This document shows, in pieces, positions 12,910 to 45,655 of a DNA stretch of 56,470 nucleotides. Position 1 is the stretch's first letter. Each line of letters begins with the position of its first letter. The translations under genes were made by a program, and so were the position numbers. The notes beneath the pieces are model-generated. The model was given only the letters and a program-made list of their open reading frames with translations. It did not search any database and was not told where the DNA came from. Source of the stretch: Lachnospiraceae bacterium (GTDB lineage: Bacteria; Bacillota; Clostridia; Lachnospirales; Lachnospiraceae); assembly GCA_029062895.1 (NCBI GenBank), contig JAIDPF010000041.1, positions 1 to 56,470 of the forward strand. Reading direction: 5' to 3'.

Positions 12910-12948
12910 GGAATAGGAAGCACTGACATCATCAGTGCTTCCTATTCC
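12910..12948. terminator. Long perfect hairpin between convergent genes
   Basis: GGAATAGGAAGCACTGA (12910-12926) pairs perfectly with its complement (12932-12948) across a 5-base loop. It overlaps the last codons of the HD-GYP gene. Neither strand has a classic T-tract, so termination is inferred from the stem and its position. Confidence 0.55.
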
Positions 12949-14891
12949 ACATCATCCAAAGCTCCCTCTTGAATCAGCTCCAAAAGAATATCCACAATAT
13001 GGGTATCCAACTGTGTTCCTGATACCCTCTTCATCTCAGCAATAATGTTTTCCATCGGCATACATTCTCTGTAGGGGCGGGTAGAATGCATGGCATCAAA
13101 GGTATCTGCAACCGCAATAATCCTTGCAACCTGCGGAATTTCTTTTTCATGCTTTCCACTCGGATACCCCTTCCCATCCAGCCGCTCATGATGAAACCCG
13201 GCACCCAATGCCAGATTCGGCAGACAGTCGATCTCCTTTAATATTTCATAACCGTATTGTGCATGCTGTTTAATCGTTTCGTACTCATCATTTGTGAGTT
13301 TACCGGGTTTGTTCAAGATATCTTCTGGAATGACAACCTTCCCGATATCATGCAGCAATGCAATATGATAAATGTTCTCCAACATTTTTTCGTTATATCC
13401 CAACTTCGCTGCGATCATCCTAGCATACGTTGCTACCCTAAAAGAATGTCCCTTTGTATACTGATCTTTAATGTCAATGCTCTTAGCAAAAGCGCGTATC
13501 ATCTGATTGATAAACAACTCGCTTTCCTTTTCCTCCTTAATTGCCTGCTTTAATTCTTTATTCTGCTCTTCCAGTCTGACAGAAAACGCATGAATCCGAT
13601 CCTTCATAAAGTGGATACAGTTTTCCGGTATATTGCTGCCGTTGTAAATTGCCTCTGCCATTTCCATACAATTTCCGTAACCGCACGCTCCACAGTTAAT
13701 ATTCCTCTGCTCCCAGCTTATTTTGTTCATAGAAAGGAATATAGCATCCAACTCCTTCTCGTCCGGTTCACGCAGGGAAATACTGCCGGATTTATCGGTA
13801 TAATTCCGCATAAAATCCCGGATATCCAATTGGGAAAACTGCTTGTTAAATTGTTTTAGGCGTTCTGCCGGCGCAAGCGCTTTTGAAAACGGACTCTCTC
13901 CGCTGTTCTTTTTACAACGTTCCCTGATCTCCTGCAGATTATAATAATTTTCCTCTGAATCATTTTTTTCAGTTTCGATACCCGTCCCATATAGGCAGCC
14001 TCTGTCACAATTTAAAATATCTACCATAAACGGCAATTTTTGTCCTTTTGCCAATCTCTTCCTATAATCCTTTAGGAAGGTATAGGCGCGCTTTTCCCCT
14101 TCTACCTGCCGTACAAATGCTTCCTCACCGCAAAACCAGTAGACATTTTCCTTAAGCCCTCCCGGAGTGGGATAAACAGAGCCCAAACCATATTCAATCT
14201 CATCTGTTGCGTCTGCACCAGCAATATGATGTTTCCGCGCATATTCCATAAAATGACGGAAGGTCAGATTATAAGATACATAACCGTATGTATTTGGATC
14301 AGTAATTTCGATTTTTTTTGCCATACACGGACTGATAAATGCCAGCTTATCCGTAATATGCAAATATTTTTTCGCATAAATCGCCGCACACAACAGGGGG
14401 CTGTGAATCGGAATCAATTTCTGTATCAGGTCCGGTGCGTAATGCTCAATATAATTAACCACTGCGGGACAGGGTTGGGAAATTCCGCCCTGCAGGTCAT
14501 GCTCTGAAATATAGTTGATATATCCCCATGTGGTAATGTCAGCACCAAAGCTGACACTGATGATCCGGTTAACTCCCAAATCCTTCAATCCGCCCAAGAT
14601 AGAGGCATATTCCTCCGGGTAATTCGCCTGAAATGCCGGAGCGAGCAGCACAGAGATCTGTTCCCCCTGCTCTAAATCATGGAAAAACTGTTCCGTATCA
14701 TCATAATAATCTCTGGCATTATGTTCACACACATCAAAACAGGCACCACACGCGATGCAATTTTCACTATGTACTTCAATCCGCTGTCCGTCCTCTGATT
14801 GAACAGAATAATTTGCAGTAAGAACAGGACAGACCGAAATGCAGCGATTACACCCCTGACACTTTTCATTTGTATAGACCAGCTGACCCAT
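12942..14891 (-). CDS. Ferredoxin / hydrogenase-like / HD-GYP fusion protein
   Basis: A 649-residue, apparently cytoplasmic, multidomain protein. Two 4Fe-4S clusters lie at the N-terminus (C11, C14, C17, C21 and C45, C48, C51, C55). Next comes a domain like the H-cluster domain of [FeFe]-hydrogenases, with QPCPAVVNYIEHYAPDL, SPCMAKK and NCDRGC in place of the catalytic motifs. A further Cys-rich motif, CGACGYGNC, precedes an HD-GYP domain (about 482-649) with H514-D515 and HHERLDGKGYP. The HD-GYP motifs are intact, which fits cyclic-di-GMP hydrolysis. The front half resembles sensory hydrogenases (HydS group), suggesting redox or hydrogen input. Confidence 0.85.
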   Translation of the reverse strand: MGQLVYTNEKCQGCNRCISVCPVLTANYSVQSEDGQRIEVHSENCIACGACFDVCEHNARDYYDDTEQFFHDLEQGEQISVLLAPAFQANYPEEYASILGGLKDLGVNRIISVSFGADITTWGYINYISEHDLQGGISQPCPAVVNYIEHYAPDLIQKLIPIHSPLLCAAIYAKKYLHITDKLAFISPCMAKKIEITDPNTYGYVSYNLTFRHFMEYARKHHIAGADATDEIEYGLGSVYPTPGGLKENVYWFCGEEAFVRQVEGEKRAYTFLKDYRKRLAKGQKLPFMVDILNCDRGCLYGTGIETEKNDSEENYYNLQEIRERCKKNSGESPFSKALAPAERLKQFNKQFSQLDIRDFMRNYTDKSGSISLREPDEKELDAIFLSMNKISWEQRNINCGACGYGNCMEMAEAIYNGSNIPENCIHFMKDRIHAFSVRLEEQNKELKQAIKEEKESELFINQMIRAFAKSIDIKDQYTKGHSFRVATYARMIAAKLGYNEKMLENIYHIALLHDIGKVVIPEDILNKPGKLTNDEYETIKQHAQYGYEILKEIDCLPNLALGAGFHHERLDGKGYPSGKHEKEIPQVARIIAVADTFDAMHSTRPYRECMPMENIIAEMKRVSGTQLDTHIVDILLELIQEGALDDVE

Positions 14892-32944: not shown

Positions 32945-35900
32945 TTACTCAACGGATTTCAGCGATTCCGCCATATTGATCTTATTTAATTTAAAATACA
33001 TAAACAGATTTACCATCAAAGCAAACAGCAACGTTATGAAGAAACTATATACATAACTGGAATTTTGAATAATATTATCAAATGCCACCATATCAATATC
33101 TATCTTCTCTATCACAAACATATGAAGCCATTTCCCTAAAAGCAGTCCCACTAGCGCCCCGATCCCCGTCAGGATCAGATTTTCACGAAAGACGTAATTG
33201 GCAGTCTCCAACGGGTAAAATCCCAGCACCTTAATGGTCGCAATCTCCCGGATCCTTTCCGTAATATTGATATTCGTCAGGTTATATAGAACGATAAAAG
33301 CCAGCATCGCCGCACAACCGATGATCAGGATAACGATGTATTTCAGACTGTCGAGCATACCGCCCACACGGTCCCTTGAGTCTTGATTAACCGTAACGCC
33401 AAGAACCTCGTCCAGATTTAACAGGTTTGCAGCGGCGCCATGGATATCCTCGCCATCTATTACATTGGCATACAGATTCTGATATTGGGGAGCCTCTCCC
33501 ATGGCATCCAGATAAGTCGCCTCGTTGATGATGGCGTAATTATGGATGTAATTTTTATAGGTTCCCGATACCGTCACCACAATTTCATTCATATCACTGT
33601 CCCTAAGCCTCAGGGTATCCCCGGTCTTAACGCCCAGTCTCTCCGCGATCTTATGGGACAAGAGCACCTCGCCGTCACCCGGAAGCGCCACGGGATTGCC
33701 TTGTTCGTCCTGCAGCAACACATAATCCGTAAATCGTTCTTCCTCCTGCGGCACCAGAAGATTTACTGACTTAATCGTTCCCGCCGACACGGCGTCCATC
33801 GTACTGATATGAAGATAGGTATGATCTTTTAGAACCTCATCTAGCGCCATTTCAAAAGCTTCCTGATCTTCCTCATCCACTTCCTCATGCAGCAGGATAT
33901 TATAATCATAAACCTCAATCTGCGTATACTGCATATCGACAACATCTACGATAGAATCCTGAAATCCAAGTCCCGTAAGCACCAGAGCCGTACAGCCGCT
34001 GATGCCGATAATCATCATAAAGAAACGTTTTTTGTAGCGAAAGATATTCCGCAGGGAAACCTTATGAAGAAAAGGAAGTCGTGTCCAGAGGAATGTGATA
34101 TATTCCAAAAAGATACGTTTGCCGGCTCTTGGCGCCTTGGGCCGGAGCAATTCCGACGGCATGCTCTTCAGTTCCTTAACGCAGGAAAACCATGTCGCTC
34201 CCATAGTACATAACAATGCAGCCAGCAGGGATACGATACCCAGCACAGGATCCGTAATATACTGCATCGGTGCAAATCCGTACATAAGACTGTACCCAGT
34301 CCAGATGACCGCCGGGAACAGATAGGTTCCGCCGATATATCCTGAAACAGCGCCTATCAAAGCCGCGCTGCCTGCATAAAACAGATATTTCCCCATAATG
34401 GCTCCCGTCGTATATCCCATCGCTTTTAACACACCGATCTGCATCCTCTGCTCCTCGATCATGCGGTTCATGGTCGTTATGCACACCAGCGCCACAACTA
34501 AGAAAAAGAAAACGGGAAATACCACAGCTACCGCCTCTACGATCTGGGTATCGCTGTCAAAGCAGACAAGACCCACATTGCTGCCGCGGTCCAGTACAAA
34601 AACATCCACTTCTTCCAAATCATCCAGTTCCGCTCTTGCGTCTGCCAGTTCTGCCTCAGCATCCGCAATCTCCTGCTCAAACTCAGCCACAGCGTCATAA
34701 TACTCTATAAAACCGTCTTCCAGCTCCTGACGACCTTCTATCAGATCTGCTTCTCCATCCATAAGCTCCTGTCTGGCGTCCGCAAGTTCCCGTCTGGCGT
34801 CCGCAAGCTCCCGTTCCCCATCCTCCAGCTCTGCGATCGCGTCTTCTAACTCCCGCCAGCCGTCTTCCAGCTCCATTCTGGCATCCGCAAGCTCCGCTAC
34901 GGCATCCTCGTATGTAGCAAGACCGTCAGCGTACTCAGTCAGCCCACGCCACAACTCCTGCTCGCTTTCATCAATTTTATCCTGTGCCTCCAGCAAATCC
35001 CCCTTGGCAAGGCAGATTTGTTCTTCGGCGTACTTTAACTGATTGGCAGCGTCCAGACATAAGAGATACTGGCTGTACAGATAATCTTTGGAGCCAGTCA
35101 ATTGTGCATGCTGCTCGTTCAGATACTCTGCAGAGGGAATAGTAGCAAGCTGAGATTGTAAATATTGCAATTGTACCTTTAATACTTCCTCCCCCGGATA
35201 AGCGGGATTCTCAGGGTGCTGAAGGAGAATCTCCATATTCTTGATTGCCTCTTCCATATTTTGCCGGCCAGCCTGTGCCTCTTCGATCTGATCAATGCCG
35301 CTATCCACCATCCCCATACCATAGGAAAGCTGACTGCCCTTTTCATCCAGCTCCGCCTTTGCCGCCTCCAGCTCCTCTTCCTTTTCTGCAATCTGCGCCC
35401 ATCCGCTGGCGATCTCCGTCCTTGCGTCATCGATCTCCCGCTGCGCGTCCGTAAGCTGGATACGGGCGTCGATCAGTTCTATTCTGGCATCCTCAAGCTC
35501 CGCCGCACCATCCGCGTATTCGTTTTCCCCATCTAACAGTTCTGCTCTGGCATCCTCTATTTCAACCCAGCCATCCGCAATCTCTGTTTCTGCATCGGCG
35601 ATCTCTATCTCTGCATCCGCGATCTCTCTTTCTCCATCCAGAAGTTCTTCTTCTCCATCGGCGATCTCCTGCTGTGCATCCATTAACTCCTCATACGCGT
35701 CCGCCAGTTCTTCTTCTCCCTCTGCCCTCGCATCGGCAAGCTCCTGCTCTGCATCTTCAAGCTCCTCTGTATATTCCTGAATGACAGCCAGATAACGCCG
35801 TTCACCGGCTTCCTCAGCTGCCGCCTCCACCCTGTCAGTCACACTGTCGATATAAGCGTCATATTCCTCAGAATACAGTGGATACCTGACTCCCATTCTT

Positions 35901-36535
35901 AGGTAGACTTCCGTATAGATATCACTATCAAACGCTTCCCTCGGCACATAGATAAAACAGTCCACCACGCCGTCTAAAAGCGCTGTGGTCCCACGCTCAT
36001 AATTCAGATAATTTGGCGACTTAATCAGACCAACTACCGTATAGGTATCTTTGTAAAAAACATCCAGTGTGTCTTCCTCATTCTGTTCGGACCACGTCAG
36101 CTCTCTTCCCAGCATATCAGAGGAGAACCATTTCGCATCCACAAGACATTCTCCGGCATTCTCCGGCATACGCCCTTCTATCAGCAATACATGGTTCATA
36201 CTCTGGGTGATCGAATGGACCTTTGCAACTGCGATTTCCTCTCCAAAGGAAAAGATCACGTCATAAGAAAAAGACCCTTCTGCATCCGAGACTCCTTCAA
36301 GTCCGGACAGGGTCTTTACATCTTCTTCCTCAAATCCATAGGTAGACACCAGACGGTAATCATAAAATTCCGCATTCTCCAGATACTGGTTACCTACATT
36401 GACCATGGCGGGCGTACAGATCTTCAATCCGCCAAAAAATCCGACACCCAGTGCCGTAATAGCCAAAATAGCAATGTATCTGCCAAAACTATTTTTAATT
36501 TCACGAAATGTAGTCTTGCGTAGATTACGGTTCAT
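32945..36535 (-). CDS. FtsX-type permease with long periodic coiled coil
   Basis: A 1196-residue membrane protein. The N-terminal helix (about 17-40) starts a MacB-like periplasmic domain. Residues about 250-670 are one long heptad-rich coiled coil made of units like ELADARxEL(M/L)DGExEIADA. Three helices with an FtsX unit follow (RMQIGVLKAMGYTTGAIMGKY), a second external domain, and a last FtsX unit (REIATIKVLGFYPLETANYVF). No ATPase gene is adjacent, so its motor is encoded elsewhere. The coiled coil could span the thick cell wall. The upstream 99-residue membrane protein is probably co-transcribed. Confidence 0.88.
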   Translation of the reverse strand: MNRNLRKTTFREIKNSFGRYIAILAITALGVGFFGGLKICTPAMVNVGNQYLENAEFYDYRLVSTYGFEEEDVKTLSGLEGVSDAEGSFSYDVIFSFGEEIAVAKVHSITQSMNHVLLIEGRMPENAGECLVDAKWFSSDMLGRELTWSEQNEEDTLDVFYKDTYTVVGLIKSPNYLNYERGTTALLDGVVDCFIYVPREAFDSDIYTEVYLRMGVRYPLYSEEYDAYIDSVTDRVEAAAEEAGERRYLAVIQEYTEELEDAEQELADARAEGEEELADAYEELMDAQQEIADGEEELLDGEREIADAEIEIADAETEIADGWVEIEDARAELLDGENEYADGAAELEDARIELIDARIQLTDAQREIDDARTEIASGWAQIAEKEEELEAAKAELDEKGSQLSYGMGMVDSGIDQIEEAQAGRQNMEEAIKNMEILLQHPENPAYPGEEVLKVQLQYLQSQLATIPSAEYLNEQHAQLTGSKDYLYSQYLLCLDAANQLKYAEEQICLAKGDLLEAQDKIDESEQELWRGLTEYADGLATYEDAVAELADARMELEDGWRELEDAIAELEDGERELADARRELADARQELMDGEADLIEGRQELEDGFIEYYDAVAEFEQEIADAEAELADARAELDDLEEVDVFVLDRGSNVGLVCFDSDTQIVEAVAVVFPVFFFLVVALVCITTMNRMIEEQRMQIGVLKAMGYTTGAIMGKYLFYAGSAALIGAVSGYIGGTYLFPAVIWTGYSLMYGFAPMQYITDPVLGIVSLLAALLCTMGATWFSCVKELKSMPSELLRPKAPRAGKRIFLEYITFLWTRLPFLHKVSLRNIFRYKKRFFMMIIGISGCTALVLTGLGFQDSIVDVVDMQYTQIEVYDYNILLHEEVDEEDQEAFEMALDEVLKDHTYLHISTMDAVSAGTIKSVNLLVPQEEERFTDYVLLQDEQGNPVALPGDGEVLLSHKIAERLGVKTGDTLRLRDSDMNEIVVTVSGTYKNYIHNYAIINEATYLDAMGEAPQYQNLYANVIDGEDIHGAAANLLNLDEVLGVTVNQDSRDRVGGMLDSLKYIVILIIGCAAMLAFIVLYNLTNINITERIREIATIKVLGFYPLETANYVFRENLILTGIGALVGLLLGKWLHMFVIEKIDIDMVAFDNIIQNSSYVYSFFITLLFALMVNLFMYFKLNKINMAESLKSVE

Positions 36536-36980: not shown

Positions 36981-37505
36981 CTATAGTCCTGCAAGAAGAT
37001 AGCTTGCCACAAGCCCAGCGAAGGTTGCAATCAATGCCCCTGCCAGCGTATATCTTGTCTTGGAAACTTTTACAGTCATAAAATATACCGACATCGTATA
37101 AAAGATCGTTTCCGTGGAACTCATGGAAATACTGACAAATTTTCCCAGAAAAGAGTCTGTTCCGTGCTCCTTAAATACATCCAGAGCAAGACCTGTTGCC
37201 GCAGAGGAAGAAAACATCTTGACAATCGTAACAGGAACCGCCTCTGCCGGGAATCCGATACTGCCTAACAGCTTAGAACATGCCAGACCAAGAAAATCTA
37301 AAAATCCGGACGCACGGAGCACTCCCACAGCCACCATCAGGCCAACTAAGGTCGGCATGATCTTTACAACCGTCTTGATGCCGTCCATTGCCCCTTCCAC
37401 AAAATCATCATATACCGGCTGTCCCTTGGAGACACCGTATCCCACCACCGCAAATATGATCACCGGAACCAGAATACCGGATATCTTTGATAATATTTCA
37501 AGCAT
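36981..37505 (-). CDS. spmB: Spore maturation protein B
   Basis: A 174-residue membrane protein. SKISGILVPVIIFAVVGYG, PVYDDFVEGAMDGIKTVVKI and FSSSAATGLALDVFKEHGTDSF match SpmB. SpmA and SpmB are needed for spore-core dehydration and heat resistance in Bacillus. The ATG at 37505 follows directly on the poly-T of the serpin-operon terminator and has no visible Shine-Dalgarno site. The usual partner spmA is about 12 kb away. Confidence 0.88.
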   Translation of the reverse strand: MLEILSKISGILVPVIIFAVVGYGVSKGQPVYDDFVEGAMDGIKTVVKIMPTLVGLMVAVGVLRASGFLDFLGLACSKLLGSIGFPAEAVPVTIVKMFSSSAATGLALDVFKEHGTDSFLGKFVSISMSSTETIFYTMSVYFMTVKVSKTRYTLAGALIATFAGLVASYLLAGL

Positions 37506-37549
37506 AAAAAAACCGCACAAAATGTAATTATTACATTCTATGCGGTTTT
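37506..37549 (-). terminator. Intrinsic terminator of the serpin operon
   Basis: AAAACCGCATAGAATGTAA pairs with TTACATTTTGTGCGGTTTT, followed by T7 on the minus strand. The T-tract abuts the spmB start codon. Confidence 0.85.
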
Positions 37550-37603
37550 CACGCGATTAGAAGTTATCTTGACCCATACGGTTACATTGCAGCTGCCGCA
37601 GGT

Positions 37604-38896
37604 TTACTGCGCGCTCTGCAGCGTCCCGATAAACAGCGGCATACCGGTATCTACTTCTACAATAGCATACACAAACGGACGATCCAGATAGACTTCCTTG
37701 ATCTCAACCGGTTCCGGCATTGTACTGCCAGCCTCCATGATAACTGCCGTAACCGCAGCTGCACGGGTTCTTTCCTGCCCTACCTCGATAAACGTTTTAT
37801 GCAGTACTATATCAATATACAGATTTCCATTTAAAAACTCAGCAATTCCGTTAAAATTAGCATTCTTCTCATCAAATGCCTGAACCATTCCCATAGCACT
37901 TAAGACATCATTCATTTTCAGCTCATATTCATAAGTAAATTCCGGCAGCTTTGTCCATACGTCATAAGCAGTCGTCCGGCTGTTCCAGAACTCCATATAT
38001 TTCTCACCGGTAAGACTTTGCACATATTCATCCACCGTCATATTCTCATCAGGAAGGATGGCAAGAAACGCATATTCATATCCCTCATAGTATTTCATAA
38101 ACCCGACGGCGTCCTCCGCCTCAAAGTAGATATCTTCCGTGCTGTTTAACATCTTCACGTCTTCCGCATCACCGTCCGCATTGGTAAACGTCTCCTCCCT
38201 CACCTGATAATCCTCATATGGGTCCGCCCATGGCGCATCTAAAGCCGTAGCATTCATCAGAATCAACTGCGCATTCGGATCAATCTCATCTAACAGTTGA
38301 TCGATCATCCCATCTGTCTTGTCATCGCACCACTGATTGACCGCATCAACCGTCGTCTGGTCAAACGGCGCTATCAGGACCTCCGCATCAAAAATACGAT
38401 CTGTCCGCACCAGATATTCATCTTTTATCTGATTCGCAGCCGTATCCCTGATCCAGATGGAATTGGCCAGATGCAGCTCCACGTCCTGACTTCCCTCATA
38501 TCTGTCAAGAAGAGTACGGCAGAAATGTTCAACCTGTTCCTGACTGGCGCCCTCACAAAATAAATCTGTAATCTGATCCTGCGTTTCCCCATTGGCTCCG
38601 GCTGCCGCCATATCCAGCGCCATCATCACTGACACCGGAGAGATCATACTGTTCGTCCCTTCTGTCACCGATCCGGCAAACAATCTCATGGAATAATCCA
38701 GATATCCCTCCTGCATCAGTTCTGCGTCATAATCTTCCAGACTTTTATTAATCTCTTCCCACAGCAGCTCCTCTACCGCCGGATCAATGTTTTGTTCCGG
38801 AATTTCCACAGTTACCGAATCAGAAACCTTCTCTCCGCATCCCACAACTCCAATCATTAATGCCGCGATGATTGCCGATAAAATACACTTTTTCAT
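37604..38896 (-). CDS. Lipoprotein serpin 1 (predicted P1 Gly)
   Basis: A 430-residue serpin, last of four in the operon. The lipobox is VVGC after a short signal peptide, so it should be tethered outside the membrane. Serpin landmarks include NSMISPVSVMMALDMAAAGA, HLANSIWI, TFIEVGQ and the C-terminal RPFVYAIVEVDTGMPLFIGT. The hinge is RTRAAAVTAV; the loop beyond it is IMEAG-STMPEPV, which places Gly at P1 and Ser at P1' by count from P14. The small residues at P12-P10 are those of inhibitory serpins, although P15 is Arg instead of Gly. The start at MKKCIL has AAAGGAG seven bases upstream. Confidence 0.9.
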   Translation of the reverse strand: MKKCILSAIIAALMIGVVGCGEKVSDSVTVEIPEQNIDPAVEELLWEEINKSLEDYDAELMQEGYLDYSMRLFAGSVTEGTNSMISPVSVMMALDMAAAGANGETQDQITDLFCEGASQEQVEHFCRTLLDRYEGSQDVELHLANSIWIRDTAANQIKDEYLVRTDRIFDAEVLIAPFDQTTVDAVNQWCDDKTDGMIDQLLDEIDPNAQLILMNATALDAPWADPYEDYQVREETFTNADGDAEDVKMLNSTEDIYFEAEDAVGFMKYYEGYEYAFLAILPDENMTVDEYVQSLTGEKYMEFWNSRTTAYDVWTKLPEFTYEYELKMNDVLSAMGMVQAFDEKNANFNGIAEFLNGNLYIDIVLHKTFIEVGQERTRAAAVTAVIMEAGSTMPEPVEIKEVYLDRPFVYAIVEVDTGMPLFIGTLQSAQ

Positions 38897-38928
38897 AATA
38901 ATTCTCCTTTCTTTAATCACAGCTTAAT

Positions 38929-40209
38929 TTACTGCGCACTCTGCAATGTCCCGATAAACAGCGGCATACCGGTATCTACTTCTACAATGGCATACACAAA
39001 TGGCCGATCCAGATAGACCTGTTTCCTCTCCAGAGGTATTTCTGCACTCTTCCCTTGCAATAGCACCGCAGTAACAGCCGCTGCCTGAGTTCTATACTGC
39101 CCAACCTCAATAAACGTTTTATGTAATACTGTGTTAATATACAGATCCGGTTCACCAGTAATCCCCGTAAAATCAGCACTATACGCAAACGCCTGAACCA
39201 TTCCCATATCACTTAAGACATCATTCATTTTCAGTTCATACTCATAAGTAAATTCCGGCATTTTTGTATCCACTTCATATTCTGCTGTCCGGCTATTCCA
39301 GAATTCCAGATATTTTTCACCGGTAAGACTCTGCACATACTGATCTACTGTCATGCTTTCCTCCGGAAGAATGGCAAGGAACGCATATTCATATCCTTCA
39401 TAATATTTCATAAAACCTATAGCATCCTCTGTCTCAAAATAAGCTCTCTCCGTGCCGTTTAACATCTTCACGTCTTCCGTATCGCCGTCCGCATTGGTAA
39501 ATGTCCCTTCCGTCACCTGATGATCCTCATATGGTTCCGCCCAAGGCGCATCTAAAGCCGTTGCATCTAAAAGAATCAGCTCCACATCCGGCTCGATCTC
39601 ATCTAACAGATGATCGATCATCCCATCTGTATTGTCACCGCACCACTGATTGATCGCATCAACCGTTGTCTGGTCAAACGGTGCTACCACTGCATCCGCA
39701 TCAAAAATATGATCCGTCCGCACCAGATAATCCTCGTTAATATGATCCACATACGTATCCCTGATCCAGATGGAATTGGCAAGATGCAGCTCCACGTCCT
39801 GACTTGACTCATACCTGTCAAGAAGATCACGGCAGAAATGTTCCACCTGTTCCTGACTTGCCCCCTCACAAAATAAATCCGTAATCTGCGACTGCGTTTC
39901 CCCATTGGCTCCGGCTGCCGCCATATCCAGCGCCATCATCACTGACACCGGAGAGATCATGCTGTTAGTCCCTTCTGTCACCGATCCTGCAAATAATCTC
40001 ATGGAATAATCCAGATATCCCTCCCGCATCTCCTCAATGTCATAATCTTCAAGATTTGGGTCAATCTCATACCGCAGCTGCTCCTCCACTGCCGGATCAA
40101 TTTCCTGTGCTAAAACTTCCGTATTCCCGGAAACGGAAGCACCCTCTCCGCATCCCGCAACGCCAATCATTAATACCGCAATTATTACAGATAAAATACA
40201 CTTTTTCAT
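38929..40209 (-). CDS. Lipoprotein serpin 2 (predicted P1 Lys)
   Basis: A 426-residue serpin with lipobox VAGC. The framework is nearly that of serpin 1 (same SISPVSVMMALDMAAAGANG-like segment, same AFLAILP and TFIEVGQ). The hinge is RTQAAAVTAV and the bait LLQGK-SAEIP, giving P1 Lys and P1' Ser, as expected for an inhibitor of trypsin-like proteases. The reading frame continues upstream to 40443 only because it runs through the MITE. The start at 40209 has GGAGG six bases before it and aligns with serpins 1 and 3. It lies 32 bases upstream of serpin 1. Confidence 0.9.
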   Translation of the reverse strand: MKKCILSVIIAVLMIGVAGCGEGASVSGNTEVLAQEIDPAVEEQLRYEIDPNLEDYDIEEMREGYLDYSMRLFAGSVTEGTNSMISPVSVMMALDMAAAGANGETQSQITDLFCEGASQEQVEHFCRDLLDRYESSQDVELHLANSIWIRDTYVDHINEDYLVRTDHIFDADAVVAPFDQTTVDAINQWCGDNTDGMIDHLLDEIEPDVELILLDATALDAPWAEPYEDHQVTEGTFTNADGDTEDVKMLNGTERAYFETEDAIGFMKYYEGYEYAFLAILPEESMTVDQYVQSLTGEKYLEFWNSRTAEYEVDTKMPEFTYEYELKMNDVLSDMGMVQAFAYSADFTGITGEPDLYINTVLHKTFIEVGQYRTQAAAVTAVLLQGKSAEIPLERKQVYLDRPFVYAIVEVDTGMPLFIGTLQSAQ

Positions 40210-40242
40210 AATCATCCTCCCTTCTTTATATATCGACTTTAA

Positions 40243-40540
40243 GATTTGGGTGTCAAAAGGTACCTTTAAAGAAATTATACGGCAAGCTGCACAAATAATA
40301 ATCTGTGCATGTGCCATTGGAAAGAAATTAGAAATTCTTAACATTCCTATCCAATACCCAGCAATTTCGGAACACGATGTTCCGAAAAGGGGCAACTGAG
40401 CCATGGATGGCGAATTTGCCCCGTTTGCGTCCGTCTTCCACAACTTAAATTAGGAATGTTTTACAGCGGCATAGGCACAGATTATTATTTGTGCAGCTTG
40501 CCACCTCAAAATTTATAAGGTACCTTTTGACACCCAAATC
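40243..40540. mobile_element. MITE-like palindromic element, copy 2 (298 bp)
   Basis: The ends, GATTTGGGTGTCAAAAGGTA and the complement, pair perfectly for over 20 bases. The internal sequence is close to copy 1 at 1420-1656 except for about 59 extra bases at the hairpin apex (40375-40433). That insert contains its own stems. No flanking target duplication is clear here. It lies between serpin 3 and serpin 2 and may separate or modulate their expression. Confidence 0.8.
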
Positions 40541-40558
40541 CTATAATTTCAACTTAGT

Positions 40559-41845
40559 TCACTGCACACTCTGCAATGTCCCGATAAACAACGGCATACC
40601 GGTATCTACTTCTACAATGGCATACACAAACGGACGATCCAGATAGACTTCCTTGATCTCAGAAAGTTCCACCATTGCACAGCCATCTGTCGCCTCAACT
40701 GCCGTAACCGCAGCCGCACGCGTTCTGTATTGTCCTACCTCAATAAATGTCTTATGCAGCACCAGTTCAATGTATAGATCGGTATAGTCGGTAATTCCGC
40801 TAAAATCCGCCGTTGCGGAATCAAATGCCTGCTTCATTCCCATATCCGCCAAAACGTCATTCATCGTCAGCTCATACTCATAGGTGAATTCTGGCAGCTT
40901 TGTCCATACATCATAATCAGTCGTCCGGCTGTTCCAGAACTCCGTATATTTCTCACCGGTAAGACTCTGCACATACTGATCTACTGTCATGCTTTCCTCC
41001 GGAAGAATGGCAAGGAATGCATATTCTCCGCCTTCATAGTATTTCATAAATCCGACAGCGTCCTCTGTCTCAAAATAACTATATTCCGTACTGTTTAACA
41101 TCTTCACATCTTCCGTATCGCCATCCGCATTGGTAAATGTCTCTTCCCTCACCTGATGATCCTCATATGGGTCTGCCCAGGGCGCATTCAAAGCCGTGGC
41201 ATTCAAAAGAATCAACTTTGTATCAGGCGCAATTTCATCCAGCAGATGATCGATCATTCCATCCGTTTTTTCATCACACCAGCCGTTGACCGCATCCACA
41301 GTCGACTGGTCAAATGGCGCAAGCACCGCCTCCGCATCAAAAATATGATCCGTCCGCACCAGATAATCCTCATTGATCCCATCCGCAATCGTATCTTTGA
41401 TCCAGATGGAATTGGCAAGATGCAGCTCCACATCCTGACTTGACTCATATCTGTCAAGAAGATCACGGCAAAAATTTTCCATCTGTGACTGCTCCGCTCC
41501 CGCGCAGAACAACTCCGTGATCTGTGACTGTGTTTCTCCATGGGCTCCGGCTGCCACCATATCCAACGCCATCATCACCGACACCGGAGAGATCATGCTG
41601 TTAGTCCCTTCTGTCACCGATCCTGCAAACAATCTCATGGAATAATCCAGATAGCCCTCCTGCATCTCATCAACGTCATAATCTTCCAGACTTTTGTTGA
41701 TCTCATCCCGCAACTGCTCTTCCACCGCCGGATCGATCTCCTGTTGCGGAATTTCCGCATTTCCCAAAGCGGAAGCTTTCTCTCCACATCCCGCAACTCC
41801 GATCATTAATGCTGCAATCATTGCCGATAAAATACACTTTTTCAT
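40559..41845 (-). CDS. Lipoprotein serpin 3 (predicted P1 Gly, P1' Cys)
   Basis: A 428-residue serpin with lipobox VAGC and the same framework as serpins 1 and 2. The hinge is RTRAAAVTAV and the loop EATDG-CAMVEL. By count from P14 the bond would be Gly-Cys, and it is the only member with Cys in the loop, so thiol chemistry or dimerisation is possible. GGAGG lies seven bases before the ATG. It starts 30 bases after serpin 4 ends; the MITE follows its stop by 18 bases. Confidence 0.9.
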   Translation of the reverse strand: MKKCILSAMIAALMIGVAGCGEKASALGNAEIPQQEIDPAVEEQLRDEINKSLEDYDVDEMQEGYLDYSMRLFAGSVTEGTNSMISPVSVMMALDMVAAGAHGETQSQITELFCAGAEQSQMENFCRDLLDRYESSQDVELHLANSIWIKDTIADGINEDYLVRTDHIFDAEAVLAPFDQSTVDAVNGWCDEKTDGMIDHLLDEIAPDTKLILLNATALNAPWADPYEDHQVREETFTNADGDTEDVKMLNSTEYSYFETEDAVGFMKYYEGGEYAFLAILPEESMTVDQYVQSLTGEKYTEFWNSRTTDYDVWTKLPEFTYEYELTMNDVLADMGMKQAFDSATADFSGITDYTDLYIELVLHKTFIEVGQYRTRAAAVTAVEATDGCAMVELSEIKEVYLDRPFVYAIVEVDTGMPLFIGTLQSVQ

Positions 41846-41875
41846 AAATAATCCTCCATTCTCTCTTACGATCTA

Positions 41876-43237
41876 CTACTGTACACTCTGCAGCGTTCCG
41901 ATAAAAATCGGAGTGCCATTCTCCATATCAATGATGGCATAAATGAAGGGTCTGTTTAAATAGACCTCCCTGTATTCCTCTTCTATGGGCATGGAAAGAT
42001 TTGTCATCATTACCCCGGTAACTGCCGCCGCTCTTGTTTCGTACTGCCCCACTTCGATAAATGTTTTATGCACCACCAGATCAATATACAGATTGCCCGT
42101 GACCGGACTAGCAATACCGGAAAAATCAGCCAGACTGCCATCAAACGCATCCTTCACCCCAAGAGCATACAATACGTCGTTCATGGTCAGTTCATATTCA
42201 TATGTGAATTTAGGCATCATGGTATGAACCTTATACACTCCTGTTCTGGTATCATAAAACTCCCGGTAACTCTCTCCTGTCATACCGGCAAGATATTCCT
42301 CAACCGTCATTCCTTCCTTTGGCAGGATCGCCAGAAAACCATACTCGCCGCCCTCGTAATATTTCAAAAAACCTACGGCATCCTCCGTCTCAAAATAATC
42401 TTCCTCCATACCGTGCATCATCTCCACGGACTGCGTCTGTCCCGCCGCAGCGGTAAAATCATCCTTCCAGACCTGTGCGTCCTCATAAGGCTCCGCCCAA
42501 GGCGCCTCTACAGCAGTTGCATTGAGCAGGCACAACACTGTATCCGGCTGAAGCGAATTTAACAGACGATCAATCATGCCGTTCGTATTTTCATCTACCC
42601 AGCCGTTGATCTCATCCACCGCCGCGGCATCAAAGGGAAGCACCCTTGCCGTTGCATCAAAGACCTGATTGGCTCTGTCCAGATATTCCGTATTTATTTC
42701 TTCTGCAAAACCGTCGTTAATCCAGATGGAATTGGCAATATGAAGCTCCACATCTTCATTGGCTTGATAACGCTCCAGCAAATCGTTTAAATAACTCTCG
42801 ATCTGCGCCTGACTTGCGTCTGGGCAGAACATCTGCGTTATCTGATCCTGCGTGTTGCCCTTCGCCCCTGCTGCCGCCATATCCATCGCCATCATCACCG
42901 ACAAGGGAGAGATCATGCTGTTGGTCCCATCTGTCACGGACTCCTTCAACAGTTCGATCGAATAGTCGATATACCCATCTCTTATCTGTTCTTCATCATA
43001 TTCTGCCATTTCCACACTTCCTTTGTCTGCACTGTCTTCAGCATCCTGCTCACTTCCGCTTTCCGTACTGTCTCCGGCAGCCTGCTCACTTCCACTGTCC
43101 ACACTGTCTCCGGCAGCCTGCCCGCTCTCAATCCCTGGCTCATCCATCCGGCTCGTCGCATCCCCCTGAGCGCAACCTGCGCAGAGCGCCATGCCAAGCA
43201 GTGCTGCCAATATTGTTCCAACAATCCTCTTTTTCAC
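41876..43237 (-). CDS. Lipoprotein serpin 4 (predicted P1 Leu), repeat linker
   Basis: A 453-residue serpin, first and most diverged of the four. The start is a GTG with GGGAGG seven bases upstream; an in-frame TTG at 43261 lacks such a site. The lipobox is CAGC. A linker with a 12-residue repeat (core SGSEQAAGDSTE) sets the serpin fold away from the membrane. The hinge is ETRAAAVTGV and the bait MMTNL-SMPIEE, giving P1 Leu and P1' Ser, as expected for chymotrypsin- or elastase-like targets. The framework has the same landmarks (TNSMISPLSVMMAMDMAAAG, HIANSIWI, RPFIYAI). Confidence 0.9.
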   Translation of the reverse strand: MKKRIVGTILAALLGMALCAGCAQGDATSRMDEPGIESGQAAGDSVDSGSEQAAGDSTESGSEQDAEDSADKGSVEMAEYDEEQIRDGYIDYSIELLKESVTDGTNSMISPLSVMMAMDMAAAGAKGNTQDQITQMFCPDASQAQIESYLNDLLERYQANEDVELHIANSIWINDGFAEEINTEYLDRANQVFDATARVLPFDAAAVDEINGWVDENTNGMIDRLLNSLQPDTVLCLLNATAVEAPWAEPYEDAQVWKDDFTAAAGQTQSVEMMHGMEEDYFETEDAVGFLKYYEGGEYGFLAILPKEGMTVEEYLAGMTGESYREFYDTRTGVYKVHTMMPKFTYEYELTMNDVLYALGVKDAFDGSLADFSGIASPVTGNLYIDLVVHKTFIEVGQYETRAAAVTGVMMTNLSMPIEEEYREVYLNRPFIYAIIDMENGTPIFIGTLQSVQ

Positions 43238-43305: not shown

Positions 43306-44574
43306 TTAGTCGGTATATGGCTCAAAGATATGCCATTCCCCATCAATGGATACCTCAATGCCACTCATGCCATATTGATAGCCATATCCTGTGCCAAAAT
43401 TGGACTGATCGTCTTCCGCAGGCACCGTATCCACTGTGCTTGTGATCTCTCCGTCCATCATCCCGCAACGAAGCTCCGTACTGATCTTTCCCGTATCCTT
43501 ATACAGGACTCCATCTACCACGACCATGGCAGGATAATCCCCCTGTGAGGCTGCCGATGTCTCCTCGTTTTGGATAGGAAGCTCGCAAAACAGTCCCGGT
43601 GTGCTACCAAGGAATACATCCAGATGCGGCTGCTTTTCTCCCCACAAGCATACGCCTGAAGATTCCTCCGTATATTCCACTCTGTAAGATTCCCATATCC
43701 CGTCATACCGAAATTCATTCCAGCCATGGATCTCATCCGTACAAAGATAGATCCAAAATAGATGTTCCGACTGTGTCTTTTCATAAATATCTTCTATGAT
43801 ATCCTGTATGCTGCCTTGGACCTCTTCTACCCGGTCCTCCGGAATGCAGATCATAATATTCATTCCCTGCTGATAAAATGTTTCCGCGGATACTTCGGTC
43901 GTTGTCATCATTCCATGGAGATTTACAAAAATTTCCTCCTGACCGATCCCGTCAGACGCTACCGCCTCATATATATATCTGTCGATATCTTCCCGATAAA
44001 GTTCGTTATAATATTTATCCCACCATAGCTCCAATTGATCCGCACCCCGCACATCAACCGCAAACCGAAGCCCAGGATCCGCTACCGGATAGGCGGTCAG
44101 ATCCATCAATAACGAAAATTCTTCATAATAAATATATTGCTCGCAACAGAACTCCTCTCCGTATTTATCTGCAAGAAGTCTCTCTACCGCATCCGTCAGT
44201 TCCGTATCCGTCAACGTCTGATATGCTTCCGAGGCAGATACCTCTATCCCGCCTACCGTAAACGATTCCTGAAAATATTCCTGATATTCCTGATTAGACG
44301 CCTGAATAGTCCTCTGACGTGGTTCCTGAGTTTCAACATTGTTAAATACTTCAAACCCTAAGATTTTAACAATCGTTCCTTCGAGATAAACCAGCTCAGA
44401 ATCTACTAAGTCCATGCTATGAACCTTATGCACACTGTAGAGGGCAGCTTTATACACAACAGTTCCACCATCCTTTAAGTGCAGGGGAATGGGAAAGAGC
44501 AAAATGATGGTCAACAGGGCACATAGCCCAAAGATAACTTTCTTAGAGATAACTATCTTTTTTTGACCGCACAT
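43306..44574 (-). CDS. Unknown membrane-anchored protein heading the serpin operon
   Basis: A 422-residue protein with one N-terminal helix (about 11-31) and a large extracytoplasmic part. Three regions are seen: VYKAALYSVHKVHSMDLVD with VYLEGTIVKILGFEVFNN near the N-terminus, an acidic central domain (about 95-300), and a C-terminal segment from VVVDGVLYKDTGK to NFGTGYGYQYGM. The first and last segments resemble short exported Lachnospiraceae proteins, so this may be a fusion of two such modules around a new centre. It begins about 60 bases after the predicted promoter and ends 68 bases before serpin 4. Function unknown. Confidence 0.7.
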   Translation of the reverse strand: MCGQKKIVISKKVIFGLCALLTIILLFPIPLHLKDGGTVVYKAALYSVHKVHSMDLVDSELVYLEGTIVKILGFEVFNNVETQEPRQRTIQASNQEYQEYFQESFTVGGIEVSASEAYQTLTDTELTDAVERLLADKYGEEFCCEQYIYYEEFSLLMDLTAYPVADPGLRFAVDVRGADQLELWWDKYYNELYREDIDRYIYEAVASDGIGQEEIFVNLHGMMTTTEVSAETFYQQGMNIMICIPEDRVEEVQGSIQDIIEDIYEKTQSEHLFWIYLCTDEIHGWNEFRYDGIWESYRVEYTEESSGVCLWGEKQPHLDVFLGSTPGLFCELPIQNEETSAASQGDYPAMVVVDGVLYKDTGKISTELRCGMMDGEITSTVDTVPAEDDQSNFGTGYGYQYGMSGIEVSIDGEWHIFEPYTD

Positions 44575-44707: not shown

Positions 44708-45655
44708 TTAGAGATTCAATCCTTTCGTTTCTTCACAGCTCAACAGCAGATTCATACACTGAATCGCCGCTCCGGAAGCGCCTTTTCCAAGATTATCAAA
44801 CTGCGATGACAATACGATACGTTCTTCATTGCCCGTCACATAGATCTTAAGTCCATCCCAGCCGGACAGCGCATTGCCTGCCAGAAAACCGCCGGCGGCA
44901 ATCTCGTCCTCCGGTCCGCTCACCTGAATAAACGCCTCTCCCTGATAATAATCCGCATAATAAGAAAGCAGCTTCTCCGGTGTCTGCGCTCCATTTAGCA
45001 TATCTGCATAGAGCGGCACAGAAACCACCATCCCACTGTAATAATCATCTATGATCGGAGAAAACAGCGGCGTCCTTGTAAGCCCTGTGATCTTCTGCAT
45101 CTCCTTCAGATGTTTATGCTGCTGTGTCAGCGCATACTCCCTGCCGGACTCCAATTCTTTCGGTCTGTCTTTCCCTTCATACACCGCAATCGTCTTTTTT
45201 CCCGCCCCGCTGTATCCCGAAAGCGCAAAGCTGCTCACCGGATAATCCTTCGGCAAAATGCCGCCCGTCACCAGCGGATATACGAGCGAAATAAATCCCG
45301 ACGCGTAACATCCCGGCACAGCGATCCGATTGCCTGTCCGGATCGCTTCCCTGTGTTCTTTGGAAAGCTCCGGAAATCCATATGCCCAGCCGGGCTCTGT
45401 CCGATGTGCCGTAGAAGTATCAATAATCTTCACATGTTCATTTTCCAAAAGACTTACGGATTCCTTTGCCGCCGCGTCCGGAAGGCATAGGAATGTAATA
45501 TCCGACTGATTGATCAGCCGCTTCCTCTCATTAACGTCCTTACGCAGTTCCGAAGCAATGGGAAGCAATTCAATATCCTCCCGTCCCGCAAATCTCTCAT
45601 AAATGCGAAGTCCTGTCGTCCCTTCACTTCCGTCTATAAATACCTTTGTCTTCAT
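44708..45655 (-). CDS. argC: N-acetyl-gamma-glutamyl-phosphate reductase (short type)
   Basis: A 315-residue enzyme of arginine synthesis that reduces N-acetylglutamyl phosphate to the semialdehyde. FIDGSEGTTGLRI is the NADP-binding turn and the catalytic cysteine is C116 in IAVPGCYASGF. The length fits the shorter ArgC class. No other arg gene is adjacent. Confidence 0.93.
   Translation of the reverse strand: MKTKVFIDGSEGTTGLRIYERFAGREDIELLPIASELRKDVNERKRLINQSDITFLCLPDAAAKESVSLLENEHVKIIDTSTAHRTEPGWAYGFPELSKEHREAIRTGNRIAVPGCYASGFISLVYPLVTGGILPKDYPVSSFALSGYSGAGKKTIAVYEGKDRPKELESGREYALTQQHKHLKEMQKITGLTRTPLFSPIIDDYYSGMVVSVPLYADMLNGAQTPEKLLSYYADYYQGEAFIQVSGPEDEIAAGGFLAGNALSGWDGLKIYVTGNEERIVLSSQFDNLGKGASGAAIQCMNLLLSCEETKGLNL

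Follow-up and report, generated by a model that had tools for sequence, protein, structure and literature searches.

Group T bacterial serpins include siropin, tengpin, miropin and the Bifidobacterium longum serpin. Eubacterium siraeum has two siropins, 1 and 2, which inhibit neutrophil elastase and proteinase 3 and whose loops are 48% alike compared to 60–63% for the proteins (PMC5127057). The B. longum serpin and saburopin are gut commensal serpins with reported elastase-type targets (PMC8201313). Here, we describe an array of serpin genes in a 56,470-nucleotide stretch of DNA (the window) of a Lachnospiraceae bacterium (GenBank assembly GCA_029062895.1, contig JAIDPF010000041.1), whose nearest named relatives are uncultured Lachnospiraceae metagenome-assembled genomes. 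The array consists of four complete open reading frames (ORFs) on the minus strand (37604–43237), in the transcription order S1, S2, S3, S4, and Pfam PF00079 is found in all four, which bears out the four tandem serpins of the initial annotation. Judging from their sequences, S1–S4 are probably suicide inhibitors of proteases that are anchored in the membrane and have specificities partitioned among them. They would be a variant of the tengpin/siropin type, and we give this reading moderate confidence.

The best solved relatives of S1–S4 are structures of tengpin from Thermoanaerobacter tengcongensis (PDB 2vh4, 2pee, 2pef; best E-values 9e-77 to 2e-84), to which all four proteins align across the whole serpin core without large gaps. 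Tengpin is a Group T serpin (PMC8233489), and by best PDB match the window proteins may belong beside it. Unlike the window proteins, tengpin has Gly at P15, and in the alignment its loop is shorter by two or three residues; the genes of the window, moreover, stand four in tandem. The siropins are likewise gut-bacterial serpins with loops less alike than the rest of the protein, so this kind of divergence is already known, but they are encoded by two genes and not four, siropin 2 alone is predicted to be extracellular, and neither ‘lipoprotein’ nor ‘tandem’ is used in the siropin text (PMC5127057). The B. longum serpin and saburopin, which we liken to S1–S4 by description only, are single characterised serpins (PMC8201313). 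New here are a four-bait lipoprotein array with a loop comparison at the level of orthologs, a departure from the hinge rule at P15 and an excess of cysteine in the loop.

Loop divergence between paralogs and predominant loop retention among orthologs

S1 (41876–43237; all genes of the array are on the minus strand) has a GTG start after GGGAGG and a longer, acidic/serine-rich linker. S2 spans 40559–41845 and S4 spans 37604–38896. The listed ORF of S3 (38929–40209) extends to 40443, and the lipoprotein probably starts from the ATG at 40209 (or 40215). With the bait loop defined as P6 to the residue preceding VYL, the loops map to 41966–42013 in S1, 40649–40699 in S2, 39019–39066 in S3 and 37694–37744 in S4 and read, from P6 to P4′, VMMTNL-SMPI, VEATDG-CAMV, VLLQGK-SAEI and VIMEAG-STMP, respectively. 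By canonical count from the P14 Thr, P1/P1′ is Leu/Ser in S1, Gly/Cys in S2, Lys/Ser in S3 and Gly/Ser in S4; the P1 residues Gly, Lys, Gly and Leu, with Ser at P1′ in three of four, had been assigned correctly. A search of the window’s own genome (3.07-Mb assembly, 115 contigs) found only S1–S4 and no fifth serpin.

Frame identity is 84.7% for S2–S3, 82.4% for S2–S4 and 82.9% for S3–S4, with a synonymous divergence (dS) of 0.41–0.62, and the S1 frame is 60–63% identical to those of S2–S4 (dS 1.4–1.5). The initial annotation of near-identical frames was therefore overstated, as it fits three of the four at best, and loosely. Loop identity is 25% for S2–S3, 47% for S2–S4, 31% for S3–S4 and 25–31% between S1 and the others. 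Not one of 317 equal-length framework windows matches the nonsynonymous divergence of the loop among S2–S4 of the window, and the same result (0/317) was obtained for paralogs pooled from three genomes and for S1 versus S2–S4. The view that the loops differ while the frames are shared thus holds: among the paralogs, loop variation exceeds the framework rate, and the loop is the fastest-diverging part of the protein. The second most variable stretch among S2–S4 is the acidic loop preceding the HKTF strand. Divergent loops are common in our sample among serpins that share a locus. Of 39 same-locus pairs, drawn from 25 loci, 38 have a loop identity below that of the frame, and 15 of the 39 come from this array and its two sister copies.

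The codon model gives an omega of 0.56 for the loop and 0.18 for the frame of S2–S4, and of 0.62 and 0.15, respectively, with S1 included. The ratio of the nonsynonymous divergence (dN) of the loop to the dS of the frame is 1.29 when the three window paralog pairs are pooled (95% interval 0.83–2.07, which spans 1) and ranges from 0.42 to 1.68 in single paralog pairs (n = 7). Loop synonymous divergence is likewise raised between paralogs (ratio of synonymous differences, pS, 1.5–1.7). Two points weigh against partitioned specificities here: two S2–S4 paralog pairs have the lowest ratios (0.85 and 0.42), and positive selection on the loops is not proven, as omega is below 1 and the interval of the pooled ratio spans 1. 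Of the proposed duplication followed by selection on target specificity, duplication with loop-focused divergence is borne out; selection for change is not established by an omega of 0.56–0.62 and a pooled ratio of 1.29 (0.83–2.07).

The same array was recognised in three other genomes among 35 of the genus, its own included. G034 carries all four genes (L036, on what appears to be the contig of the named L005), G033 carries three (L037/L006), with S2 missing, and in G008 S1 and S4 lie on two broken contigs. The array flanks are syntenic, with an argC-like gene and a gene for a 422-amino-acid (aa) protein upstream and a Gate gene downstream. Between the window and G034, its nearest sister species, loop identity is 88, 76, 94 and 88% and frame identity is 95.7, 95.4, 94.2 and 90.5% for S1, S2, S3 and S4, respectively. 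The loops are 88% (S1), 62% (S3) and 88% (S4) identical to those of G033 and 69% (S1) and 71% (S4) identical to those of G008, and loop identity across all ortholog pairs is 56–100%. P1 is Lys in all three S3 genes, Gly in both S2 genes, Leu in three of four S1 genes (Asn in G008) and Gly in three of four S4 genes (Ala in G008).

Pooled over the four window–G034 ortholog pairs, the ratio of loop dN to frame dS is 0.31 (0.13–0.55), and six of the nine single ortholog pairs lie at 0.16–0.32. The other three pairs speak against retention: their ratios are 0.73 (S1, G008), 0.85 (S2, G034) and 1.42 (S3, G033), with intervals that include 1. Nonsynonymous change in ortholog loops ranks near the top, with 4 of 317 framework windows reaching it, and the loop is therefore less constrained than most of the frame. 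The comparison of paralogs and orthologs supports a pattern of loop change following duplication and then mostly retention in sister species.

The same values could be explained by relaxed constraint only, in which case any unstructured bait would work, the targets would not be partitioned and the four genes would serve as dosage copies. A loop omega below 1, the raised synonymous differences between paralog loops and the near-top rank of ortholog loops are all in line with this account. It is at odds with the pooled window–L005 ratio, which is under the neutral value (three of the nine single pairs include 1), and with a loop composition that is far from random, with Cys, Met, Ala, Pro and Glu raised and aromatic residues and His nearly absent when compared to the frame. 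We consider it quite improbable.

Orthologous frames cluster together in the frame-plus-loop tree and in the frame-only codon tree, with weak support in places; in the latter, window S4 groups with its orthologs (support 76). The single exception, which counts against the proposed history, is a DNA tree of the frame only, where window S4 joins S3 (support 24) and S4 is not one clade. The trees agree in giving modest support to duplications that would have preceded the split of the window species, G034 and G033, and they leave the order of G008 unplaced.

The grouping of frames by ortholog, along with a reverse-transcriptase gene that lies on a different contig, argues against targeted diversification by a diversity-generating retroelement and against gene conversion that homogenised the frames around loop cassettes. 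What favours such a mechanism is that the fastest variation is confined to one C-terminal stretch of otherwise similar genes and that the genome contains that one reverse-transcriptase gene. The one loop queried was that of S4, with a 101-base sequence around it, which matched parts of S2 and S3 and otherwise just itself. With no template repeat found by this query and no reverse transcriptase nearby, a retroelement is disfavoured. Paralogs are closer than orthologs in just two adjoining 30-codon windows, which lie in one very conserved stretch, and in one 3′-end window, so gene conversion as the cause of the similar frames is unsupported except in short tracts. We give these mechanisms almost no credence. 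A recent mobile origin also finds no support, because all plasmid and phage matches are below 60% identity (18 of 72,556 plasmid and 2 of 50,697 phage records).

In a further genome, G026 (L038, 2205–5605), the place between the argC-like and Gate genes holds one serpin between the flanks and another past the Gate gene. Their loops contain ENCCVV and DSCSAD, each with cysteine. These two serpins are each other’s closest relatives, which indicates that the argC–Gate place has expanded more than once.

Serpin fold, hinge and inhibitory competence

The PF00079 profile matches S1–S4 with 253.7–267.1 bits (cut-off 27; E-values 4e-75 to 4e-79) and is covered from position 5 to 367 of 370 in each, and the fold assignment rests on the homology to tengpin. 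Two scans of viral contigs for relatives that would deepen the S2 alignment found none. By motif search, each protein has a signal peptide ending in a lipobox Cys. The claim of a lipobox in all four holds insofar as the motif is present in each; it is regular in S2–S4 (V[AV]GC) and atypical in S1 (CAGC, with Cys at −3). The proteins had been placed on the outer face of the cell; Lachnospiraceae usually have a single membrane, and in that case the location is better described as the outer side of the cytoplasmic membrane.

We compared the hinge across 224 of 229 sampled serpins, having dropped two in which no hinge could be recognised, one with a truncated loop, one fragment and one duplicate. 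Serpins are found in 25 of 35 genomes of the genus and in 140 of 397, 69 of 196 and 75 of 398 genomes of the family, order and phylum draws, respectively, with the window genome counted within each. The family sample (30 loci and 60 regions, among the matches listed), the order sample (29 loci and 20 regions) and the phylum sample (30 loci) consist mostly of high-scoring matches and are not random draws.

All four window serpins carry T-x-A-A-A-V-T at P14–P8 (P14 Thr, P12–P10 Ala, P9 Val, P8 Thr). Across the 224 serpins, P12 (0.22 bits), P10 (0.46 bits) and P8 (0.22 bits) are near-fixed. Their neighbours P13 (2.20 bits), P11 (1.03 bits), P9 (1.75 bits) and P7 (2.70 bits) are variable, and variability is high from P5 on. 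The same pattern is seen as changes on a frame-only tree of 194 rows, which number 3 at P12, 9 at P10, 7 at P8, 21 at P14 and 118–128 at P3–P1. Side chains at even hinge positions point into sheet A and are buried upon loop insertion. An even/odd alternation would be expected if the insertion strand is conserved and the bait is free to vary, and it lends indirect support to loop insertion. The residues equivalent to Ser53, Ser56, Asn186, Trp194 and His334 of the shutter and breach, in α1-antitrypsin numbering, are all present in S1, S2 and S4.

Several other observations weigh against inhibition by S1–S4. P1 Gly, found in S2 and S4, is not a trypsin, chymotrypsin or typical elastase site and is poor for common serine proteases. 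S3 keeps four of the five shutter and breach residues and has Asp for Asn186, a position that is Asn in 213 and Asp in 3 of the 224 serpins and Asn in both orthologs of S3; the window copy of S3 may thus be weakened. The AlphaFold model of S2, built from an 11-row alignment, has a mean predicted local distance difference test (pLDDT) score of 41, too low to bear on loop insertion either way. P14, at 1.10 bits, fits the even/odd pattern less well than P12–P8. P15 is Arg in S2–S4 and Glu in S1 instead of Gly; it is Arg, Lys or Glu, and never Gly, in all 13 sampled members of the cluster, compared to Gly in 208 of the 224 sampled serpins and a non-Gly residue in just 3 of the 211 outside the cluster. 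P17 is Gln in 13 of 13 cluster members and Glu in 157 of the 224 serpins, and since Glu at P17 is less general than Gly at P15, P15 is the telling departure. The hinge, which had earlier been read as canonical, thus departs at P15 and P17 from the published P17–P9 consensus ExGTEAAAA (PMC8233489), and the Arg or Glu at P15 is the main doubt over the inhibitory competence of S1–S4. As to the bait, siropins are cut at P3–P2 and P6–P5, so bacterial serpins can be cleaved away from the canonical P1 (PMC5127057). The trypsin-like and chymotrypsin/elastase-like targets proposed initially are conjectural.

It is conceivable, if rather unlikely, that S1–S4 are non-inhibitory serpins that kept the fold and lost fast insertion, and that act as cleavable decoys, substrates or binding proteins whose loops drift under weak constraint. 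The non-Gly P15 of the whole cluster, the Asp at the shutter of S3 and a paralog loop rate indistinguishable from neutral would all be expected of such proteins. The retention of P14 Thr, P12–P10 Ala-Ala-Ala and P8 Thr in all four would not, and neither would the conservation of most ortholog loops, P1 included, which drift alone does not predict.

Starting from the observed gene structure, homology, rates, orthology and hinge pattern, we propose the following model for S1–S4 as inhibitors with partitioned specificities, in which lipidation, loop insertion, inhibition, targets and benefit are predictions. Each serpin would be exported, lipidated at the lipobox Cys and tethered by a short acidic linker. 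Upon cleaving the exposed loop, a protease would be carried along as the hinge (P14–P8) inserts into sheet A and would thereby be inactivated, making each molecule a single-use trap. The cluster would have grown through duplication between the argC-like and Gate genes, with S1 splitting off first and S2, S3 and S4 later, before the separation of the window species, G034 and G033. Once the genes had duplicated, the loop around the scissile bond would have diverged at about the silent-site rate while the frame was under strong purifying selection, and each loop would then have been mostly retained. The cell would carry several baits for different proteases, be they of host, competitor or dietary origin. 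The array amounts to a natural loop-swap experiment, with three similar frames and one more distant frame, four baits, and baits mostly kept in sister species. Four related proteins assayed side by side would make the question of what these serpins protect against directly testable, and the P15 departure probes to what extent the textbook hinge rule is required.

Cysteine near the scissile bond

Cysteine makes up 0.5% of frame residues in the sampled serpins, and 61 of the 224 proteins have Cys at P5–P5′, compared to 5.1% of framework 10-mers. Carriers account for 22 of the 41 serpins from the genus, 30 of the 102 from elsewhere in the family, 7 of the 51 from the order outside the family and 2 of the 30 from the phylum outside the order; these counts are not independent, and this array with its orthologs supplies 13 of the 41 genus rows. 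When similar loops are collapsed, Cys is found in 12 of 22, 29 of 91, 6 of 46 and 2 of 12 clusters, respectively. None of 294 framework windows of 10 columns reaches the level of the loop (36 carriers at most versus 59 of 194). The loop cysteines concentrate at P2–P2′, which holds 50 of the 67 in P7–P7′ (p = 8e-15, kinship ignored), and P1′ holds 11 of the 25 in the genus. In the window, S2 alone has a loop Cys (P1′), and S4 has Ser at P1′ where its three orthologs have Cys.

The excess of Cys over the serpins’ own frames is 8.8-fold in the genus, 5.1-fold in the family, 3.0-fold in the order and 8.6-fold in the phylum, so the raw frequency is confined to the family and the relative excess is not. 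For methionine, the increase is about 3-fold in each group. On the frame tree (194 rows), loop Cys requires at least 39 changes compared to 45–58 (mean 51.5) in 60 shuffles, which marks it as a labile trait with some inheritance.

These findings might point to thiol-bait serpins in the genus and family, with Cys repeatedly placed at P2–P2′ to form a trap that would need the reducing gut and be tuned or shut off by oxidants, or that would engage the thiol chemistry of its target; tandem arrays would then mix Cys and non-Cys baits to cover both conditions. We regard this idea as unlikely. The Cys excess at the scissile bond offers a specific, falsifiable chemistry. Loop Cys may have duller explanations, namely tolerance in a reducing gut or a stand-in for the P1′ Ser. 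The loop Cys share of 2.9% is near the random-codon expectation of 3.3%, which speaks for drift, whereas the peak at P2–P2′ and the levels of aromatic residues, His and Arg, far below random expectation, speak against a neutral origin. Substitution for Ser fits two Cys/Ser exchanges (window S4 versus its orthologs and G031 versus G006) but fails for the 25 Cys at P2 and P1.

Clade B serpins SERPINB1, B6, B8 and B9 have Cys at or next to P1; they are eukaryotic, and the Cys at P1/P1′ is shared by position only, with no close kinship implied. Bomapin (SERPINB10) is reportedly a redox-sensitive eukaryotic serpin. A literature search returned no title on loop cysteines of bacterial serpins, which is weak evidence of absence.

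Four loci (L042, L044, L048 and L050, of G002, G006, G021 and G031, respectively) encode lipoprotein serpins fused to a C-terminal AhpC-TSA/Redoxin domain, which was identified by Pfam in L042 and L044 and by sequence likeness in L048 and L050. We dropped these fusions as support for a redox role, because just one of the four has a loop Cys.

Array layout and neighbourhood

The spacing is about 30 bases between S1 and S2 and between S3 and S4. The gap between S2 and S3 is longer because a palindromic dispersed repeat resembling a miniature inverted-repeat transposable element (40240–40543) is inserted there; it is absent from the sister array L005. This repeat has 84-nt inverted arms and the ends GGGTGTCAAAAGG...CCTTTTGACACCC, and a second window copy lies at 1416–1656. 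Nine other copies are found elsewhere in the genome, each covering at least 220 of 345 query bases.

Directly upstream of the array lies the gene for the 422-aa protein (43306–44574, minus strand), which is kept in the sister arrays and has no match in Pfam or NCBIfam. It is preceded by the upstream syntenic flank (44708–45655, minus strand), a putative argC-like gene. The downstream syntenic flank (36981–37520, minus strand) encodes a Gate protein (PF07670, by Pfam). A terminator-like hairpin with a T run (37508–37550, minus strand), identified by consensus match only, is located 3′ of S4 and may mark the transcript end.

Two unannotated fecal ‘Bacteriophage sp.’ records, MT835777.1 and MT835510.1, encode serpin-like proteins with 33–34% identity to S2. 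Elsewhere in the window, 32945–36535 encodes a 1196-aa permease of the FtsX/MacB type that contains a very long acidic stretch, repetitive and coiled-coil-like, and 12942–14891 encodes a protein that unites an iron-only hydrogenase-like domain and an HD domain.

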